Source: Seonamhaeicola sp. S2-3
GTDB lineage: Bacteria > Bacteroidota > Bacteroidia > Flavobacteriales > Flavobacteriaceae
DNA length: 64,000 bases
Reading direction: 5' to 3'
NCBI RefSeq assembly: GCF_001971785.1
Contig: NZ_CP019389.1
Span: 3,607,001-3,671,000 of the forward strand
The position numbers and the translations under genes were made by a program. A model generated the notes under the pieces. The model was not told where the DNA came from. It saw nothing but the letters and a program-made list of their open reading frames with translations, and did no database searches. This document shows, in pieces, positions 38,503 to 63,465 of this stretch (positions are counted from its first letter, which is position 1; each line of letters starts with the position of its first letter).

Positions 38503-39780
38503 TTATTTACTGGTATTTAAAAACTTAGGTTTAATTACTAACATTGCCCAAGCCCAATTTTGTCCATTGGCAGCATCTGTTTCAGTAACACCTTTTAACT
38601 CATACATACCATCTGCGGGAAATAAATGAGAGTATCCCAAAACTAAAGCATACCCTTTAAATGCTTTTTTATAAACCAAATCTATTTCTGTACCTAAAGA
38701 TTTTTCGCCACTAGGCAATTCTTGCTCACCACTAAAATTAAGTATTTTAGCCATTAAGCTAGAAGAGTTATTTAATTTAAAGTTTGCACTAGCATGAATA
38801 TCAAACAATCCAATGGAGTTAGCGTGATTACCTACATAGAAGTAATCCATAAATCCATTAAACTTATGGTTTGTTCCATATAAAGGGAAGAAAGCTCCAG
38901 TTTCACCAGTATCGGCATCGTTACCGCTAATAATTTCTAAACCAGCTCCCAAAGTTACTTTATCTGAAGTTTTATAAGCTACATCTAAACCTAACAAATA
39001 AGCGCCTTTAACATCAATTTCTCCTTGTCTTTTCCCCGTTTGAACAAAGGCATTAGCCGCTAAACCAAAGCTACCTACTTCATAATCTAAATGCGTACCA
39101 ATAGTTTGTAAATTACTTACACCATCTGGCTCACTACTACCATCATACTTCTGAAAACCGTTATTTAACAATAGTAAGCTACCAGAAAATTTCTCCCAAG
39201 ATTGTTTTAAATACAACATTTGCATGGTTTTATAAGAGAAAAAGCCTGTAGTATCGTAACCTGTGCCTGTTGAAACAAATCCTGTAGGGTTTGAATAGTC
39301 TTGATTAAATGCTAAAGCAAAATCTAAAATAAAATTCCCTTTTTTATGCTTTATTAAAGCAGCATCATGATTGCGTCCTTGTTGTGCCCAATCAAGACCT
39401 CCAAGAATTCTTTGATCATCATATGATAATACTTGACGCCCTATTTTAGTAGACCATCCTTCTCCTAATTTAATTTCTGCCCAAGCTTGAAAAATTGCAA
39501 ATGAGTTGTTTTGATCATAAGGTAAAATTTGCCTATTTTCACCCCAAACCATTACATCTTGTAAACTTAAATACACTTTATAACTTTCTGTTGTGAAGCC
39601 TGCATTTAAGCGTGCTCTAGTTGAAATTCCAAAACCAGCATCGGTATCATCTGCAATAAGACTTCCAAACCCATGACGATATTCTGTACGTGGTCTAAAC
39701 TCGCCATCTAAAGTAAATTGGGCTTGTGCAAATTGAGCCACTAAAGCCAAAATTGTTATTAATACATATTGTTTTTTCAT
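38503..39780 (-). CDS. Outer-membrane porin, alginate-export (AlgE-like) family
   Basis: 425 residues with a signal peptide ending VAQFAQA. The barrel starts FTLDGEFRPRTEYRHGF and has the aromatic, alternating strands of an AlgE-family 16- to 18-stranded porin, with IGRQVLSYDDQRILGG. I recognise such porins beside flavobacterial nitrate importers, so nitrate diffusion across the outer membrane is a reasonable inference. It lies 139 bp after nrtD and has its own -7 box. Confidence 0.8.
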   Translation of the reverse strand: MKKQYVLITILALVAQFAQAQFTLDGEFRPRTEYRHGFGSLIADDTDAGFGISTRARLNAGFTTESYKVYLSLQDVMVWGENRQILPYDQNNSFAIFQAWAEIKLGEGWSTKIGRQVLSYDDQRILGGLDWAQQGRNHDAALIKHKKGNFILDFALAFNQDYSNPTGFVSTGTGYDTTGFFSYKTMQMLYLKQSWEKFSGSLLLLNNGFQKYDGSSEPDGVSNLQTIGTHLDYEVGSFGLAANAFVQTGKRQGEIDVKGAYLLGLDVAYKTSDKVTLGAGLEIISGNDADTGETGAFFPLYGTNHKFNGFMDYFYVGNHANSIGLFDIHASANFKLNNSSSLMAKILNFSGEQELPSGEKSLGTEIDLVYKKAFKGYALVLGYSHLFPADGMYELKGVTETDAANGQNWAWAMLVIKPKFLNTSK

Positions 39781-39846: not shown

Positions 39847-39854
39847 CAAATATA
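39847..39854 (-). promoter_or_regulatory. Candidate -7 box of the porin gene
   Basis: On the minus strand TATATTTG, a perfect TAnnTTTG, 67 bp upstream of the porin ATG. No clear TTTG lies at the -33 distance. Confidence 0.35.
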
Positions 39855-39918
39855 AAAAGACAACAACGTCCTCTATATGATAAAACTCATGTTTAAAACT
39901 GCATTTTTATTTTAAACC

Positions 39919-40752
39919 TTAATGCTCTAGAAAATCTATTAAGTGCTTTCTGTATTTGTAATAATCGTCGTGCTCTAAAACAGATTTTCTTGTCCTGGGT
40001 CTTTCAAAATCAACCTCTAAAACATCACCAATTTTAGCTCTAGGACCACTGGTCATCATTACCACACGGTCTGCTAAAAAAATAGCTTCATCAACATCGT
40101 GGGTAATCATTACAGCTGTAATTTTTTCTTTATTCCAAATTTCAATAAGAATGTCTTGAAGTTCACCTCTAGTTAAAGAATCTAACATGCCAAAAGGTTC
40201 ATCTAACAAAAGTACCTTTGGTTTAATGGCAAAAGCTCTTGCTATACCTACACGTTGTTGCATACCTTGTGATAATTCTGATGCCTTTTTATGAAATGCT
40301 TCTTCTAACCCTACTTTTTGAAGATAATACTTTGCGATATCATTACGTTGCTTTTTTGTTGCATGTGGAAATACTTGATTTACACCTAACAACACATTTT
40401 GAAGTGATGTCATCCAAGGCATTAAACTGGGTGATTGAAAAATAACACCCCTGTCTGGTCCTGGACCTTTAACATGTTTTCCTAAAACCGAAATATAACC
40501 ATCTGTAATATTGTTTAGTCCTGCTATCATTGAAAGCATGGTTGTTTTGCCACAACCAGAGTGCCCAATAATGGTAACAAACTCCTCTTTCATTATTTGA
40601 AGATTTAAATCTTCAAGCACTACATAATCTCCTTTTGGTGTTGGGTATACTTTTTTAAGTTTCTTTAAATCCAACATGACTTTTGATTCTGGAAAAAGGC
40701 CATTATCTGTTCTTTCTGTAGAAACTTTTTTATTTAATACATCTATACTCAT
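39919..40752 (-). CDS. nrtD: Nitrate/nitrite ABC transporter ATP-binding protein (NrtD-like)
   Basis: 277 residues. Walker [14 protein letters not shown], signature [15 protein letters not shown], Walker [16 protein letters not shown] and switch His in MITHDVDEA. The TauB/SsuB/NrtC-D subfamily is clear. It starts 11 bp after the other ATPase gene. Cyanobacterial NrtC carries an NrtA-like tail; neither ATPase here does. Confidence 0.85.
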
Positions 40753-40763
40753 AATTTTGGCTT

Positions 40764-41612
40764 TTAAAATCTGCTACCCACAAAACTTTTAGGTGCTAAA
40801 TCTGGTAAAACAAATTCTTCTTTTGCTTGAGACTTACGCTGATCACCTATATCCATTAAATATTCTATAATAGCATTTCTGGTTTCTTTAAAGTTTTCGT
40901 TATCATTCAACGCTGTCTTATCTCTGGGGCGTTCTATATTTATTTTAAACTCTGGACCTAAAGTAGCGTTTGGTCCTGGGCGTAATGGAATAATTCTATC
41001 AGCCATATAAATACCCTCGTCAACATCATTGGTAATTAATAAAGCGGTACGTTTATCTTTTCCCCAAATATTTAAAATTTGATCTTGTAAATTACCTCTG
41101 GTTAATGCATCTAAAGCTCCAAGTGGTTCATCCATTATAATCATATCAGGCTTCATAGCTAAGGCACGAGCAACCGCCACGCGTTGACGCATGCCTCCAG
41201 ACAACTCTTTTGGTAACTTACTAATTGCTGGTGTTAATCCTACCATTTCTATATAATGAGCCGCTTTACGTTTCCATACTGATTTTTTACGCTTTGGAAA
41301 TGCCTCTTTAACAGCCATCACTACATTTTGCTCTACCGTTAACCAAGGAAGTAATGAATAATTTTGAAATATTACTCCACGTTCATGACTGGTGCCTTTT
41401 ACGGGTTCGCCTTTAAACAATACTTCACCACTTGTGGGCTCTAACAAACCGTTAATTAGGTTTACTAAAGTTGTTTTTCCGCTTCCTGTAAAACCCACTA
41501 TAGCTACAAATTCACCTTCTTCAATACTTAAATTTATATTTGAAAGTACTTGAGTAGCATTATCTTCTTGACCGTACGTTTTATAAATATTATTTAATTC
41601 TAAATATGCCAT
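40764..41612 (-). CDS. nrtC: Nitrate/nitrite ABC transporter ATP-binding protein (NrtC-like, single domain)
   Basis: About 282 residues from the ATG at 41612; a TTG nine bases upstream is in frame but weaker. Walker [15 protein letters not shown], signature [15 protein letters not shown], Walker [14 protein letters not shown], switch His replaced: the sequence reads [10 protein letters not shown] where ...THD is usual. That Asn at the H-loop position is worth noting. It is paired with nrtD and may act as the less active site of a heterodimer. Confidence 0.85.
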
Positions 41613-41629
41613 GTTTTTCAATTTTAAGT

Positions 41630-42733
41630 TTATTGTGCGTTTTTATTGAAAGACACCATATTTTGGATGGTTAACATGATTCTATCTAATAAAAAACCTA
41701 TGATACCAATAACAAACATGGCTACAATAATTTTAGAGTTAGAATCATTGGCTCCGTTTTGAAATTCTTCCCAAACAAACAATCCTAATCCAGGATTTTG
41801 AGCTAAAAGTTCAATAGCAATAAGAACCATCCACGCTACCGATAAGGTAATGCGTAGTCCAGTGAAAATAAGTGGTAGCGAAGACGGTAATATTACTTTA
41901 AAAACCTTTTGAATGGGGCCTAACTTTAACACTTTAGCTACATTAATATAGTCTTTATCAACGGTTGAAACCCCCATAGCCGTATTTACTAAAGTTGCCC
42001 ACATAGAACATAAACCAACACTTATAAATGAAATGATAAAAGCGCTATCAGAATTTGAATCTTTAGTAACAGTCTTTACAATCATAAATACCAAAAGCAA
42101 CCAAACCACTGGAGATACTGGTTTAAAAATTTGAATTAACCAGTTAAAAGAACTTTTTAATGTTTTACTTAAACCAATTACAATCCCTATAGGTACTGCA
42201 ATAAATAGCGCTAGTAAAAATCCTGCAAATACTGTTTTTAAACTAGTTATAATTTGGTCTACAAAAGACGGTCTTCCTGTATACGTTATTGGAGCCTTAC
42301 CTTCAGCAATACGTTTTTCATTTAAAGCAGCGGTTTTTTCTTTAAAAGCTAACTTATCTGCACTAATTGCTCTATGGTCTGCTAATAGAGTTTTATATGA
42401 ATTCCATACTTGAGCAGGTGACGGTAATGTATTAGGTTGACAACCAACATCCCCTGATGCAATACAAGCAGCCATTTCATCGGCGGCCGCTTGCCCTTGT
42501 TCTTCTAGTGCTTTATTGATTTTATAATCTGCTTCAATGTTATAAAGTGTTTTGGCTCCTAAGTGCCATAATCCAATAAACAGTATAATTGAAGCAAGTG
42601 GCACTACGGTTTTACGTAAGAAGTTCTTAAAATCCTTCTTATCCAATTTTCCTGTAAATAATGACTTTAATGTGGTTATAAAACCTAACCCCACAAACTT
42701 GCTTACTTTATTTAATGTTATGCTTTGCTTCAT
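41630..42733 (-). CDS. nrtB: Nitrate/nitrite ABC transporter permease (NrtB-like)
   Basis: 367 residues. After one helix at ~43-62 comes a periplasmic stretch of ~100 residues that includes C90 and C98 and is longer than in standard NrtB. Five more helices (from ~165) follow, with the BPD permease EAA loop (NVAKVLKLGPIQKVFKVILPSS). It forms the channel of the importer. It sits 8 bp from nrtC and 24 bp after nrtA. Confidence 0.88.
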   Translation of the reverse strand: MKQSITLNKVSKFVGLGFITTLKSLFTGKLDKKDFKNFLRKTVVPLASIILFIGLWHLGAKTLYNIEADYKINKALEEQGQAAADEMAACIASGDVGCQPNTLPSPAQVWNSYKTLLADHRAISADKLAFKEKTAALNEKRIAEGKAPITYTGRPSFVDQIITSLKTVFAGFLLALFIAVPIGIVIGLSKTLKSSFNWLIQIFKPVSPVVWLLLVFMIVKTVTKDSNSDSAFIISFISVGLCSMWATLVNTAMGVSTVDKDYINVAKVLKLGPIQKVFKVILPSSLPLIFTGLRITLSVAWMVLIAIELLAQNPGLGLFVWEEFQNGANDSNSKIIVAMFVIGIIGFLLDRIMLTIQNMVSFNKNAQ

Positions 42734-42757: not shown

Positions 42758-44146
42758 TTAATTGTCTTTGTTTCCTATTTTAAAACTATTAATATACCCT
42801 ATTGGGTCTTTAGCATCATAGGTAGTTCCGTCAATAAAATCTGAAGTAGCCGGCTTATAACCATCGGTTTCAGGAATATCTGAAGCAGGGATATTTCCTT
42901 CTTCAACTAAAAGTTTAGCTGCTTTTTTCCAGATATCTGGACGATATATGTCTTTAATTGTTTCTGAATACCAATCTGCAGGTTTTGCTTCAGGAATTTG
43001 TCCCCATCGTCTCATTTGAGTTAAGAACCAAATACCATCAGAATAGAATGGATATGTTGCATTATATTTATAGAACACATTAAAATCTGGCATTTCGCGT
43101 TTGTCTCCTTTTTCAAATTCAAAGGTTCCTGTCATAGAATTTTCTAGAACGGCTTCATCTGCTCCTACGTATTGAGACATAGACAATATTTTAACTGCCT
43201 CTGCTCTATTTTGAGGCTCGTCTAACCATTTACCTGCCCTAATTAGAGCTTTTGTAACCGCTATTGCTGTATTAGGATTTTCTTCAACAAACTTTTTAGT
43301 CATTACAAATACTTTCTCTGGATTATTTTTCCAGATATCATAATTTGTTGTTACAGGCACGCCAATACCTTTAAAAACGGCTTGTTGATTCCAAGGCTCT
43401 CCTACACAATAGCCGTAAATGGTTCCTGCTTCTAAAGTTGCAGGCATTTGTGGTGGAGGCGTAACCGATAATAAAACCTCGGCATCTATTTGTCCTTGCA
43501 CATTATCAGCTGTATACATTCCTGGGTGAATACCCGCAGCAGCTAACCAATAACGAATCTCGTAGTTATGAGTTGATACTGGAAACACCATTCCCATTTT
43601 AAAGGCTTTACCAGAGTTTTTATACTCATTAATAACAGGCTTAAGAGCATCTGCTTTAATAGGATGTACAGGTTTACCATCATCTCCCTTTGGTACATTT
43701 GGTTTCATTTTAGACCAAACATCATTAGAAACTGTAATACCGTTACCATTTAAATCCATTGAAAACGGAGTTACTAATTCTGCTTGACGACCAAAACCCG
43801 CGCCTGCAGCAATAGGTTGTCCCGCCAACATATGAGAGCCATCTAATTGACCATCTATTACACGGTCTAATACATTTTTCCAGTTTGATTGTGCTTCAAC
43901 AGAAACAAACAAACCTTCATCTTCAAAAAATCCTTTTTCTTTTGCAATGGCTAAAGGTGCCATATCGGTTAATTTAATAAACCCAAAAGTTAATTGAGGC
44001 TTTTCTATATCTAATGATTTTGTTTTTGAAACTCCAGCTGCTATTTTTTCTACTGAACTTTCTCTCTTTTTTTCTTTACTTCCACATGCAAATAGTAAAA
44101 CTGCCATTGGTAGAATAAAGATTGATTTTTTGATTAGTGCTTTCAT
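42758..44146 (-). CDS. nrtA: Nitrate-binding lipoprotein (NrtA/CmpA-like)
   Basis: 462 residues. Lipoprotein signal [23 protein letters not shown] places Cys21 as the lipid anchor. The rest is the CmpA/NrtA periplasmic-binding fold: [38 protein letters not shown] and [15 protein letters not shown]. It captures nitrate or nitrite for NrtBCD. It is the first gene of nrtABCD. A 16-bp palindromic operator candidate is 23 bp upstream. Confidence 0.9.
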
Positions 44147-44168: not shown

Positions 44169-44184
44169 TAAGTATTTATACTTA
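44169..44184 (-). promoter_or_regulatory. Candidate operator TAAGTA-N4-TACTTA before nrtA
   Basis: Perfect inverted repeat of six-base half-sites, 4-bp spacer; seven-base arms if flanking bases are counted. It is 23 bp upstream of the nrtA ATG. Members of the same motif class lie before three other genes of this island. Here the adjoining -7 box is poor (TAGTAATT). Confidence 0.5.
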
Positions 44185-44261
44185 ATTTTTAACAAATATA
44201 TAAGTAGATAAAAACAATCATACTGCCAAAAACCACATTAAAAACACTTTTTATCACATAA

Positions 44262-44373: not shown

Positions 44374-44802
44374 TTAAGTAATTTCTTTTTGATAAGCAGC
44401 TTTCACCATAATTCCAGACATGGTAGTATAAACATCTACCCATGCATTTTTTACTTCTAAAGTAAAATCTGCACCTAAACCAGCTTCTAATGTTGCTAAT
44501 AAAGCCTCTCCTACGGTATAATAATGAAATTCTTCTACCTTATAATCTAAATGTCTTTGCCCTAAATCTTCTAAAACAGGAACTAAATCATTAAAGTTTT
44601 TTAACCCATTAATAGCGGTTCCTAGCATAGACATAAGTTTACGTCCTTGTATTTTCATTAATTCATTATCCGTAGGAAATAATTCTTGTAAATGCGGATC
44701 TAGTTCAAATAATTTGGCATAAAAATACTCTGCAGCTGTATTGGCAATAGGTCGCATTTTATTAAATGATTCTTGTACTAAGGCTACTGTTTTTGCTTCC
44801 AT
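44374..44802 (-). CDS. Single-domain bacterial haemoglobin (globin)
   Basis: 142 residues and no FAD or NAD domain, so a plain globin rather than flavohaemoglobin. Features are helix-CD Phe in ELFPTD and proximal His84 in LGQRHLDYKV, aligned by eye with Vitreoscilla haemoglobin. Globins beside nitrate genes are often linked to nitric-oxide handling or oxygen binding. It lies between the Fnr-like gene and nrtA on the same strand. Confidence 0.88.
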   Translation of the reverse strand: MEAKTVALVQESFNKMRPIANTAAEYFYAKLFELDPHLQELFPTDNELMKIQGRKLMSMLGTAINGLKNFNDLVPVLEDLGQRHLDYKVEEFHYYTVGEALLATLEAGLGADFTLEVKNAWVDVYTTMSGIMVKAAYQKEIT

Positions 44803-44942
44803 ATTTTAGGCTTTAAATATTCTTTTTTAAGAAAAGAATTGTTTATGATGCAAAACTAAAAGAGTTGTTACAAAAAAAATATAGAAATAAACAGGAAGAA
44901 ACCTGCCTTTACACCATGTTTAAAAAAAATAAAAATATTTAA

Positions 44943-45692
44943 CTAGCTATCTAAGAAAAAGTTATGCTCGCTAATTTCTTTACTAAGAAGTTCTACATCA
45001 TTAATCCCTATTTTTTTTCCACTAGCAGAAATTAATCCTTCCTTTTTTAAAGCAGAAAACACCCGTATAACTTGTTCTTCTGAGGTTCCTGCATAATCTG
45101 CATATTCTTTTCTACTTAGTGGTAAATTTAAAAATCCATTAAGGTTTCCAAACTTTCTATTAATATATAATAAGGTATCAACAACACGTTCTCTAACGGT
45201 CATTTGAGATAAAGATTTAACTTTAGATTCGCTTCTATTAAGCTCGTTTGCGTAAAAAAGCATTAAATTATAGGTAAATTCAGAGTTTTCTCTCAACCCC
45301 TTTTGTAATGATTCTTTAGAGAAGTAACAAAGCGCAGTATCTTCTAAAGCAATAGCTCCAATAGGATAGTACTCTTCGGTTCCAAAGCCTCTATGACCAA
45401 TAATCTCACCATTTTTCGCAAACCTTACTATCTGTTCCTTTCCATTAATACCTGTTCTAAACACTTTTACTTTGCCTTGAAGGATAAAAAATAATCCGTT
45501 AACAGGAGCTCCCTCTATAATAAATTGCTGGCCTTTTTTACAAAATATTTCATTTTTCTCATCTAAAAAATCTGAAGTCTCAAGTACTTTTAAGCTCTTT
45601 TTTACTAAGCAAAATGTGTTAGTACAAGCATCACAAGACACTTTATCTAAATTTAAATGTTTTGATTTTGAAAATGAAGCCGCTTTTAGCAT
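44943..45692 (-). CDS. Crp/Fnr-family regulator with FNR-like cysteines
   Basis: 249 residues. Residues ~40-150 are a cyclic-nucleotide-binding-type beta-roll and ~165-235 an HTH_Crp domain (LSRKEYADYAGTSEEQVIRVFSALK). Cys residues at 20, 23 and 28 (CDACTNTFC, spacing CX2CX4C) and 122 (TALCYFSKE) match E. coli FNR C20, C23, C29 and C122. An [4Fe-4S] oxygen or NO sensor is therefore plausible. In the recognition helix Glu and Arg are in the usual places. It sits between the globin gene and the divergent moeA. A candidate operator lies in its own promoter. Confidence 0.87.
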   Translation of the reverse strand: MLKAASFSKSKHLNLDKVSCDACTNTFCLVKKSLKVLETSDFLDEKNEIFCKKGQQFIIEGAPVNGLFFILQGKVKVFRTGINGKEQIVRFAKNGEIIGHRGFGTEEYYPIGAIALEDTALCYFSKESLQKGLRENSEFTYNLMLFYANELNRSESKVKSLSQMTVRERVVDTLLYINRKFGNLNGFLNLPLSRKEYADYAGTSEEQVIRVFSALKKEGLISASGKKIGINDVELLSKEISEHNFFLDS

Positions 45693-45709: not shown

Positions 45710-45731
45710 CAAATATACGTAATAATACGTA
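45710..45731 (-). promoter_or_regulatory. Candidate operator plus -7 box of the Fnr-like gene
   Basis: TACGTA-N4-TACGTA at 45716-45731; reading on the minus strand, its last TA starts a perfect -7 box TATATTTG (45717 to 45710). The gene's ATG is 18 bp further. No TTTG lies at -33. Confidence 0.5.
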
Positions 45732-60239: not shown

Positions 60240-60271
60240 CAAAACTAAGTATTTTTACGTAAAAATACGTA
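60240..60271 (-). promoter_or_regulatory. Double operator and -7 box of narK
   Basis: TAAGTA-N4-TACGTA (60246-60261) and TACGTA-N4-TACGTA (60256-60271) share a half-site. The first shares its final TA, read on the minus strand, with a perfect -7 box TAGTTTTG (60247 to 60240). Two more TACGTA hexamers lie at 60223-60228 and 60279-60284. Confidence 0.55.
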
Positions 60272-60493: not shown

Positions 60494-61159
60494 TTAAGCC
60501 AATTGATATTGCTTAGCTTTATCTGTAAGTTCTTTTAAATTAGAAACTTCTAACTTCTTCATTAAGTTAAAGCGATGTACCTCAGCGGTACGTTTACTAA
60601 TTTGTAGTTCTTCGGCTATATCTTTATTATTTTTTAACTCTAAAACCAAACTAAGTATTTGTTTTTCCCTTTTAGTAAGTTTAAATGGTAAGTTTTTTGA
60701 TTCTTGTTTTTTTGCTGACGAAACTACTGGTGTTCCATTTACAAAATTGTTCATTATAATTTCGGAAACATCTCCTGTAAAATACTTACCTCCAGAAGCC
60801 ACATTATTTAAGGCTTTTAAAAATTCATCTTTACTAGCTCCTTTTAATAAGTAACCATCGGCTCCTGCTTGAATGGATTGCACCACATATTCTTCAGAAT
60901 CATGCATAGATAGCACTAAAGTTTTAACATCTTTATGTTTTGCTGTCATTTCTTTAACCACTTCAATACCATTCATTTCTGGCATTCTAATATCAACAAT
61001 GAGTACATCTGGTTTGTTTTTGGTTATTACTTCTAAAGCCTCTTTACCGTCTGAAGCCTCATCAATCACTTCAATGCCTTTTTGGTCTTCTAAAAGTGCT
61101 TTGATACCATCTCTTACCAAAGCATGATCATCTGCTAATACAACTTTAATCACATCCAT
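60494..61159 (-). CDS. NarL-like LuxR-family response regulator
   Basis: 221 residues. Receiver domain: DDHALVRDGI, phospho-acceptor Asp in LIVDIRMPEMNG, LKGASK. C-terminal LuxR HTH: LTKREKQILSLVLELKNNKDIAEELQISKRTAEVHR. The kinase gene upstream is NarX-like, and both sit next to narK, so nitrate or nitrite control is likely. A candidate operator is 33 bp upstream of its ATG. Confidence 0.9.
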   Translation of the reverse strand: MDVIKVVLADDHALVRDGIKALLEDQKGIEVIDEASDGKEALEVITKNKPDVLIVDIRMPEMNGIEVVKEMTAKHKDVKTLVLSMHDSEEYVVQSIQAGADGYLLKGASKDEFLKALNNVASGGKYFTGDVSEIIMNNFVNGTPVVSSAKKQESKNLPFKLTKREKQILSLVLELKNNKDIAEELQISKRTAEVHRFNLMKKLEVSNLKELTDKAKQYQLA

Positions 61160-61186: not shown

Positions 61187-61208
61187 CAATTTTAAGTATT
61201 ATTACGTA
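61187..61208 (-). promoter_or_regulatory. Candidate operator and -7 box of the NarL-like gene
   Basis: TAAGTA-N4-TACGTA at 61193-61208. Read on the minus strand its last TA starts TAAAATTG (61194 to 61187), close to TAnnTTTG. It lies in the 50-bp gap after the RidA gene, suggesting the regulator gene has its own promoter within the gene series. Confidence 0.45.
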
Positions 61209-61209
61209 A

Positions 61210-61593
61210 TCATCTATTTTTAAGTGCAGTAACCTCTATTTCTATCTTCATTTTTTTATTAGCCAAACCAGCAGATAGCATTGTAGCAGCGGGTTTTACA
61301 CTGCCTAAATATTTTTTTAGTACAGGCCAACAACACTCAAAATTACTTGCTTTTGATAATATATAAGTAACTCTAACTATATCTGACAAACTAGCACCTG
61401 CCTTTTCTAGTGTATTCTTAATATTAATAAAACATTGTTCTGTTTGTTCTATAATATCTTCACTAATAGTCATTGTTTCATAGTTATAGCCTGTGGTTCC
61501 TGATACAAAAACCCAATTATCTTGCACTACTGCTCTTGAATACCCTATTTGTTCTTCAAATACAGAACCGGAGTTTATTAGTTTTTTTGTCAT
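61210..61593 (-). CDS. RidA-like protein inside the two-component operon
   Basis: 127 residues with the YjgF/Rid fold (VVQDNWVFVSGTTGYNYE, IVRVTYILSKASNF, PAATMLSAGLANKKMKIEIEVTAL). In the catalytic-Arg position of true RidA (PARxxV) this has PAATML, so it lacks that Arg and may not deaminate enamines. It lies between the kinase and regulator genes. Confidence 0.85.
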   Translation of the reverse strand: MTKKLINSGSVFEEQIGYSRAVVQDNWVFVSGTTGYNYETMTISEDIIEQTEQCFINIKNTLEKAGASLSDIVRVTYILSKASNFECCWPVLKKYLGSVKPAATMLSAGLANKKMKIEIEVTALKNR

Positions 61594-61644: not shown

Positions 61645-63465
61645 TCATGCTTCATTCAACGGTATGTTAAGTGTTACGCGCGTACCCTTTCCTGGTTCTG
61701 AATGTAAAAACAAACGCCCATTAATATATTTAATACGTTCTTTCATAAACGTCATCCCCATACCGCCATCTCCTTTTTTTACTTTTTCAACTTTATCTGG
61801 ATTAAATCCTTTTCCGTTATCATCAATCACAATACTCAATATATTTTTGCTGCTTGATAAGGACACTAAAATATGCGAAGAGTCTGCGTATTTAATGGCA
61901 TTATTAATAGCTTCTTGTGTAATTCTGTAAATATTGATTTCTGTAAGAGAATCTAATCTACCACTAAAGTCTGTTTTGTTATAAACAATAATTTCTTTAC
62001 CAGTAAGTTTTGCTAATTCTTGAGTTAGTTTTGTTAGCGCAGGAACAATACCATGATCTGACAATTCTGGTGGTGTTAAATTAAAAGTAGCAGTTCTAAC
62101 TCCTTTAATAATATTTGATGTAAGTTCTTTTAAATGCTCTATTTTAGATGTTGTTTTTTTTATGTCTGAAACGTCAATACTTTCTAAATTATACTTTAAA
62201 CCTGTAAGCATTTGCCCAATACCATCATGAACATCCTTAGCTATACGATTTTGTTCATTTTCTTGATTTTCAATAATTTTACTGGAGATGATTTTTTGCT
62301 GATTCATCTTCTCCTCAAAACTTTTTTTGGTTAACCTTTCAATTTCTAATTGCCCTTCTTTTCTTGTGGTAATATCTGAGGCAATTATTAACAATTCAGA
62401 TTTATCATTTACTGGGTTAAAAGGAATTATAGCCATTTCAAGCCATACATTTTTATTGTTTTTGGTTAAAGCCTTAACCTCTCCTTGCCACCCTGTTTTT
62501 TTATTTTTAGAAATTAAATTTTCAATAATTTCTTGTTCATTTTCATTAACCGAAAGTACCTGCGCAAAGTTTACAGACGCATTAAACTTACTTAAACTAA
62601 AAAGCTTTGAAAACTTTTTCCCCATATGCACAACCCTACCGTCTGGTTTTATTCTGGCAAAAAGCAAAGTTTCATCCATAGCATGACTTAAAGCTCTTAA
62701 TTCTTTAATAGATTTTTCTTTAGCTTCACTTAAAACATCGGCATTATAAGCCATTTCTTTGGCCTTTTTTTCGGCAAGTATTAAATCTGATAAGGTTTTC
62801 TTAACCGTTTTTGCTGTAGGCAAAAAAATAAATAGAAACTCTGCTAATAAAAGTAGTAAGGTGAATACCATTAAAAACATTTCTAATTTACGCAACCACG
62901 CTATTTTTTCTTCGGCCTCTAAATCGTATTGATTTACAATACCATCCATTTTGTTTAGAAAATCACCTTCGTTTAATTTTACTTGTTCTATTTGAGACTT
63001 GAAACTTTCAGTAGCTATGTTAGGTGTGTTTTCTATTTGATTTATAATGGTTTCTGAAGCATTTTTAATTGCATTAAACGCAGGGTTAATATTGTTAAAC
63101 ATAGCTGAAACCACCTTACTGTTATTACCTGGTAACCCCAAACTATCATTTCCATTTTGAAGTGCATTATGAGACAACACCCAAAGTGCTAAGGTTTGTT
63201 TTAAATTGTCTTTTATTGCAATTTTTTCTAGGCTATTTTCATTGGTTGAAAGTGATAAAATTTCTTTGGTAAGTTTTTGACTAAGCATACGTTGCCTACC
63301 AGCAACGTTAATTATTCTAGAATCACTTTCTTGATCTTTTAAATGTTTTCTAATAAGAATTTGACTAACAATAACCGAAAGTGCAATGGTACTAAGCGCG
63401 ATAATATATAAACGACGTAATCGTTCAAAAGTACTTTGGTCTAATGAATTACGATTGCTTGTCAT
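61645..63465 (-). CDS. NarX-like nitrate-sensing histidine kinase with PAS domain
   Basis: 606 residues. Two membrane helices (about 20-38 and 196-215) bracket a periplasmic PilJ/NarX-type sensor with a P-box-like motif NVAGRQRMLSQKLTKE (53-68). A PAS domain follows (~255-370), then HisKA_3 with the phospho-acceptor H413 in KDVHDGIGQML and HATPase_c (ITQEAINNAIKYA, DDNGKGF, GGMGMTFMKERI). It probably senses nitrate or nitrite in the periplasm and phosphorylates the NarL-like regulator. Confidence 0.88.
   Translation of the reverse strand: MTSNRNSLDQSTFERLRRLYIIALSTIALSVIVSQILIRKHLKDQESDSRIINVAGRQRMLSQKLTKEILSLSTNENSLEKIAIKDNLKQTLALWVLSHNALQNGNDSLGLPGNNSKVVSAMFNNINPAFNAIKNASETIINQIENTPNIATESFKSQIEQVKLNEGDFLNKMDGIVNQYDLEAEEKIAWLRKLEMFLMVFTLLLLLAEFLFIFLPTAKTVKKTLSDLILAEKKAKEMAYNADVLSEAKEKSIKELRALSHAMDETLLFARIKPDGRVVHMGKKFSKLFSLSKFNASVNFAQVLSVNENEQEIIENLISKNKKTGWQGEVKALTKNNKNVWLEMAIIPFNPVNDKSELLIIASDITTRKEGQLEIERLTKKSFEEKMNQQKIISSKIIENQENEQNRIAKDVHDGIGQMLTGLKYNLESIDVSDIKKTTSKIEHLKELTSNIIKGVRTATFNLTPPELSDHGIVPALTKLTQELAKLTGKEIIVYNKTDFSGRLDSLTEINIYRITQEAINNAIKYADSSHILVSLSSSKNILSIVIDDNGKGFNPDKVEKVKKGDGGMGMTFMKERIKYINGRLFLHSEPGKGTRVTLNIPLNEA

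Follow-up and report, generated by a model that had tools for sequence, protein, structure and literature searches.

We found that the nitrate island in the window, which is the whole 64,000-nucleotide stretch of Seonamhaeicola sp. S2-3 DNA analyzed, encodes a Crp-family regulator that is FNR-type by fold, ligands, and operator geometry. Comparison of promoters among relatives suggests that it acts at a set position before the nitrate uptake genes and a globin gene to turn on their expression. With some reserve, we consider it a probable FNR-type activator of transcription that serves a single pathway, with a predicted [4Fe-4S] cluster and an altered operator preference. Through it, nitrate use may depend on O2, NO, or Fe-S status, with both the cluster and its signal being predicted. 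To our knowledge, assimilatory nitrate uptake is not usually regarded as gated by an FNR-type cluster, and no described Bacteroidota nitrate FNR was found in open-licence papers. Were the reading true, nitrate use in marine flavobacteria would hinge on O2, NO, or Fe-S supply. The features are listed in Table 1.

Table 1. Features of the nitrate island, with positions in the window.
Feature	Position	Strand	Remarks
FNR-like Crp-family regulator	44943-45692	minus	249 aa; Cys20, Cys23, Cys28 (CX2CX4C), Cys51, Cys122; HTH recognition segment GTSEEQVIR
Single-domain globin	44374-44802	minus	142 aa; resembles haem domain of flavohaemoglobin
nrtA	42758-44146	minus	ABC substrate-binding protein of nitrate type; heads the nrtABCD operon, downstream of regulator
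nrtB, nrtC, nrtD	39919-42733	minus	permease and two ATPases
Outer-membrane protein gene	38503-39780		follows nrtABCD in conserved order
nrtA promoter dyad (TG-N8-CA) TGTGGTTTTTGGCAGT	44222-44237	minus	centre -41.5; weaker than family consensus YATG-N8-CATR
nrtA -7 box TATATTTG	44193-44200	minus	flavobacterial sigma-A type TAnnTTTG
Globin promoter degenerate class II dyad CCTGTTTATTTCTATA	44880-44895	minus	half-site CTG kept, C+5 to T
Dyad and -7 box, ATGAGTTTTATCAT-N22-TATATTTG	39847-39890 (G000:C1:3646847-3646890)	minus	before outer-membrane protein gene
Palindrome TAAGTATTTATACTTA	44169-44184		just downstream of predicted nrtA start; probable operator of the NarL-like response regulator and not of FNR
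Palindrome TACGTAATAATACGTA	45716-45731		overlaps -7 box in the promoter of the FNR gene; probable operator of the response regulator
NarL-like regulator	60494-61159		
NarX-like kinase	61645-63465		PilJ-type sensor domain

Fold of the regulator and comparison with known systems

The five cysteines named in the first-pass annotation (20, 23, 28, 51, and 122) were confirmed in the translation of the minus-strand ORF. So was the spacing CX2CX4C, against CX2CX5C in E. coli FNR, and it was shared by 118 of 120 orthologues. Pfam placed the protein in the Crp/Fnr superfamily, with matches to PF00027 (cNMP-type beta-roll, 5e-18) and PF13545 (Crp-type HTH, 1e-14). The NCBIfam Fnr model NF008365 was the best match, at 66.7 bits, far under its cut-off of 228. 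The AlphaFold2 model (pLDDT 83) was closest to the P. gingivalis Crp/Fnr protein 2gau, and A. fischeri holo-FNR was among the top structural matches (Z 22-23, within fold matches of Z 20-25 overall). C122 aligned with FNR C122 (ALCYF vs MVCEI) in the HMMER alignment to A. fischeri FNR, and our own alignment agreed.

The FNR proteins of E. coli and A. fischeri are O2-sensing [4Fe-4S] activators of the Crp family. At 23-24% identity in structural alignment, the regulator shares with them the fold, the C20, C23, and C122 columns, the recognition-helix residues E and R, the TG-N8-CA geometry, and the class II position at -41.5. It differs from them in the shorter cysteine spacing, in the additional conserved C51, and in a Ser at the position of Asp154; its operator is without the -4 A of TTGAT in the FNR site, and it is tied to one pathway, whereas FNR serves a global regulon. 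In E. coli FNR, Asp154 blocks dimerisation when the cluster is absent (PMC4214427). The matching position was Ser in all 120 orthologues, so that the E. coli monomer-dimer switch is not simply transferable, and the switching mechanism of the regulator may differ. Because three tested features of E. coli FNR are missing (the spacing, the NCBIfam cut-off, and Asp154), we filed the regulator as a variant, not as FNR itself.

Other Crp/Fnr regulators resemble it in part. Campylobacter NssR, with Cgb, is likewise a Crp/Fnr regulator whose partner is a single-domain globin, but NssR is not known to carry the FNR-type cysteine cluster or to be placed with nitrate uptake genes. Bacillus-type FNR has the same CX2CX4C, but at its C-terminus and with Asp as the fourth ligand. 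Cyanobacterial NtcA is also a Crp-family regulator of nitrogen assimilation, but it senses 2-oxoglutarate, is not known to have a cysteine cluster, and reads a GTA-N8-TAC site.

Conservation of the cysteines

The proposal that the cysteines at 20, 23, 28, and 122 hold an FNR-type cluster presupposes their conservation, and this check was passed: the four columns were Cys in 96-98% of the orthologues (n=120). Among these non-redundant sequences, Cys was kept in 118 at each of the three N-terminal positions C20, C23, and C28, in 119 at C51, and in 115 at C122 in the beta-roll, and no other column reached 90% Cys. C20, C23, C28, and C51 were conserved at 98-99%, against less than 60% in most neighbouring N-terminal columns (21, 22, 24, 26, and 35-45), and the residues near the cysteines varied freely with the exception of Asn25. 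All three N-terminal cysteines were lost together in two orthologues (L086 and L087). Gene order was kept in both, and the class II dyad before nrtA was lost in L086 and half lost in L087.

A CX2CX4C motif plus a distant Cys would also suit zinc, and C51 is as conserved as the others, so we considered whether the cysteines form a zinc site or a redox disulfide instead of an Fe-S cluster. This is quite improbable in our judgement, given that C20, C23, and C122 match the FNR ligands column for column and that the fold matches holo-FNR. A putative [4Fe-4S] cluster is the assignment we kept. C122 alone is no marker of a [4Fe-4S] protein, because it was Cys in every sampled Bacteroidota Crp/Fnr paralogue; their N-termini carried CX2C, CX4CX2CX2C, or CX2CX4C, and those with CX2C only had C122 as well. 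As judged from these sequences, C122 predates the nitrate-FNR group.

Loss of C122 and gain of C95 in one clade

Five orthologues were without C122, having His (four) or Tyr (one) instead: L054, L055, L075, L080, and L188. Exactly these five had Cys for Gly at position 95, while C95 occurred in none of the 115 sequences with C122. The nrtA dyad was kept in all four C95/H122 orthologues examined. The five sequences form one clade in the tree, so the swap counts as one evolutionary event, and independent repeats of the loss were rejected for these sequences. No new genome of the clade was among the best matches of a further search, as judged by score.

The pattern suggests that the fourth ligand moved from 122 to 95 in this clade, which would fit a need for four thiols. 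C51 is the less likely candidate for that ligand, since the five sequences without C122 gained C95 despite having C51, and since one orthologue without C51 kept the other four cysteines. Tentatively, and with somewhat more doubt than belief, we propose the wider picture of a flavobacterial FNR lineage that came to serve nitrate uptake alone as a switch, that prefers an operator of its own, and that in one clade has its fourth ligand relocated from 122 to 95. If it is true, C122 and C95 orthologues would make a natural pair for probing how ligand position tunes cluster sensing; the swap and the lineage without N-terminal cysteines would both be ready-made tests of cluster ligation.

The nitrate island

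The nitrate setting and the globin neighbour, both recognized in the first-pass annotation, were borne out. The island is assimilatory, as indicated by NasA, which has a fused FAD/BFD part and 4Fe4S and 2Fe-2S domains, together with a nitrite-reductase-like protein and cofactor genes. Among 299 genomes of the family, about 48 had both the regulator and nrtA, six had nrtA only, and one had the regulator only, so that the two occurred together in about 48 of the 55 genomes having either. The order regulator-(globin)-nrtABCD-outer-membrane protein, on one strand, was found in nearly all of 114 loci; nrtA was present in 106 of them, and the globin gene adjoined the regulator gene in about half. 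A search of viral contigs found no match.

A class II dyad before nrtA and the globin gene

At loci bearing the regulator, a TG-N8-CA dyad was placed exactly 29 nt before the TAnnTTTG box in 95/102 nrtA promoters and 48/55 globin promoters, counts that are not independent because the loci are related and some were entered twice under two locus ids. In an offset scan, TG-N8-CA hardly ever occurred at that spacing in narK, nasA, or FNR promoters. In flavobacteria the -7 box runs from -12 to -5 (PMC9723704), which centres the dyad at -41.5 of the predicted starts, the position of a class II activator. With the box so placed, relatives have the dyad where a class II Crp/Fnr activator of these promoters would bind, and in the window itself both dyads, of nrtA and of the globin gene, are weaker than theirs. 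The combined pattern of dyad and box recurs genome-wide, with 131 matches in 12 genomes against 26 for the reversed control, about five times as many.

The dyad was found in none of the nrtA promoters of the six genomes lacking the regulator, which are partly of one lineage and have promoters with further differences. The link that the first-pass annotation proposed between the regulator, nitrate use, and the globin is supported at the sequence level by co-occurrence, conserved order, and the class II dyad at both promoters. Another TG-N8-CA, at offset 74 of nrtA, was rejected as an operator, since by eye it looks like the terminator stem of the gene upstream.

The general FNR paralogue

The same genome has an FNR paralogue (MGKCEQC) beside the cbb3 oxidase (cco) genes at G000:C1:2510.5 kb (L248), which probably runs the general low-oxygen regulon. 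Paralogues of this type (L002) share with the nitrate FNR the Crp/Fnr fold, the C122 column, and the class II geometry of the assigned sites; they differ in having the N-terminal CX2C only and the helix TATESAIR, at 37% identity. The probable sites are ATGAY-N4-RTCAT, found at class II positions before hemN, ccoN, and a c-type cytochrome gene of this genome (names read from translations).

As the hemN and ccoN sites share geometry and class II position with the nrtA dyad, the nrtA and globin dyads might belong to the general paralogue, with the nitrate FNR acting elsewhere. We regard this as quite unlikely. Base -4 was A in 25/28 sampled general sites and G or T in 94/102 nrtA sites, and in two of the six genomes lacking the nitrate FNR, the search gave a match at general-paralogue level, yet nrtA had no dyad. 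The difference at -4 means that the two FNRs seem to read different operators, with the nitrate FNR as the likelier reader of the nrtA dyad. If so, TG-N8-CA at -41.5 together with the -4 base (A vs G/T) would let the two regulons be read from genomes. Among moeA promoters, 17/44 had a dyad of the general type (ATGACACATGTCAT-like) one base further out, with its centre at -42.5 (L050, L059, L060, and others).

Proposed mechanism and signal

In the proposed mechanism, Cys20, Cys23, Cys28, and Cys122 (Cys95 in place of Cys122 in one clade) would hold a [4Fe-4S] cluster, and the cluster-bearing dimer would bind the TG-N8-CA dyad and recruit RNA polymerase. When the cluster is lost to O2 or NO, or is not built because Fe-S supply is short, nitrate uptake and globin expression would fall. 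Sequence does not separate O2, NO, Fe-S sufficiency, and a role without a cluster, so sensing of O2 or NO is something we infer.

As with NsrR, the physiological signal could be NO or nitrite-derived reactive nitrogen, with the globin as a detoxifying output. The regulator adjoins a globin akin to the flavohaemoglobin haem domain, the dyad precedes the globin gene in the 48/55 loci above, and FNR-type clusters react with NO, as described for FnrP (PMC4771820). We nevertheless think this unlikely: in about half of the loci the globin gene is absent next to the regulator, whereas nrtA is there in nearly all, and if NO took the cluster from a class II activator, globin expression would fall instead of rise, unless activation came from the apo or nitrosylated form.

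The regulator could also read Fe-S supply instead of a gas. Several Fe-S clusters go into nitrate and nitrite reductases, and uptake would then be on only when clusters can be built. The assimilatory setting, with the Fe-S domains of NasA, is consistent with this, as are the separate cbb3-linked paralogue, which probably covers the low-oxygen regulon, and the Ser at 154 in place of the Asp that gates E. coli FNR (PMC4214427). FNR-type clusters are, however, usually O2-labile, and we give this explanation only a small chance. An FNR-type activator whose predicted cluster may respond to O2, NO, or Fe-S status is the reading retained.

A second palindrome in the island promoters

The palindrome TAMGTATNNATACKTA was found in 102/102 nrtA promoters and in many FNR, globin, narK, and other island promoters. 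As an operator of the FNR it was rejected, since it persists in the six genomes that have nrtABCD but are without the nitrate FNR, and the NarL-like regulator was found in 60/60 genomes searched. On the same grounds the palindrome was assigned to the two-component pair, most likely as the operator of the NarL-like response regulator. Its frequent placement over the -7 box or downstream of it suggests that the response regulator acts as a repressor there. The NarX/NarL-like pair would then be a second input, through its own palindrome round the start site, and would act on the FNR gene too.

Near-perfect copies of TAMGTATNNATACKTA are the two in Table 1 and those at 60246-60271 and 61193-61208 of the window, with another at 3517-3532 of L217. 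These copies stand at the promoters of nrtA, FNR, narK (twice, overlapping), the NarL-like regulator, and a nirB-like gene. A RidA-like ORF, read by eye, lies between the NarL-like regulator and the kinase (61213-61593, minus strand). Beside the sensor kinase, a DUF4202 protein (Pfam PF13875, 63478-63945) recurs in the nitrate island.
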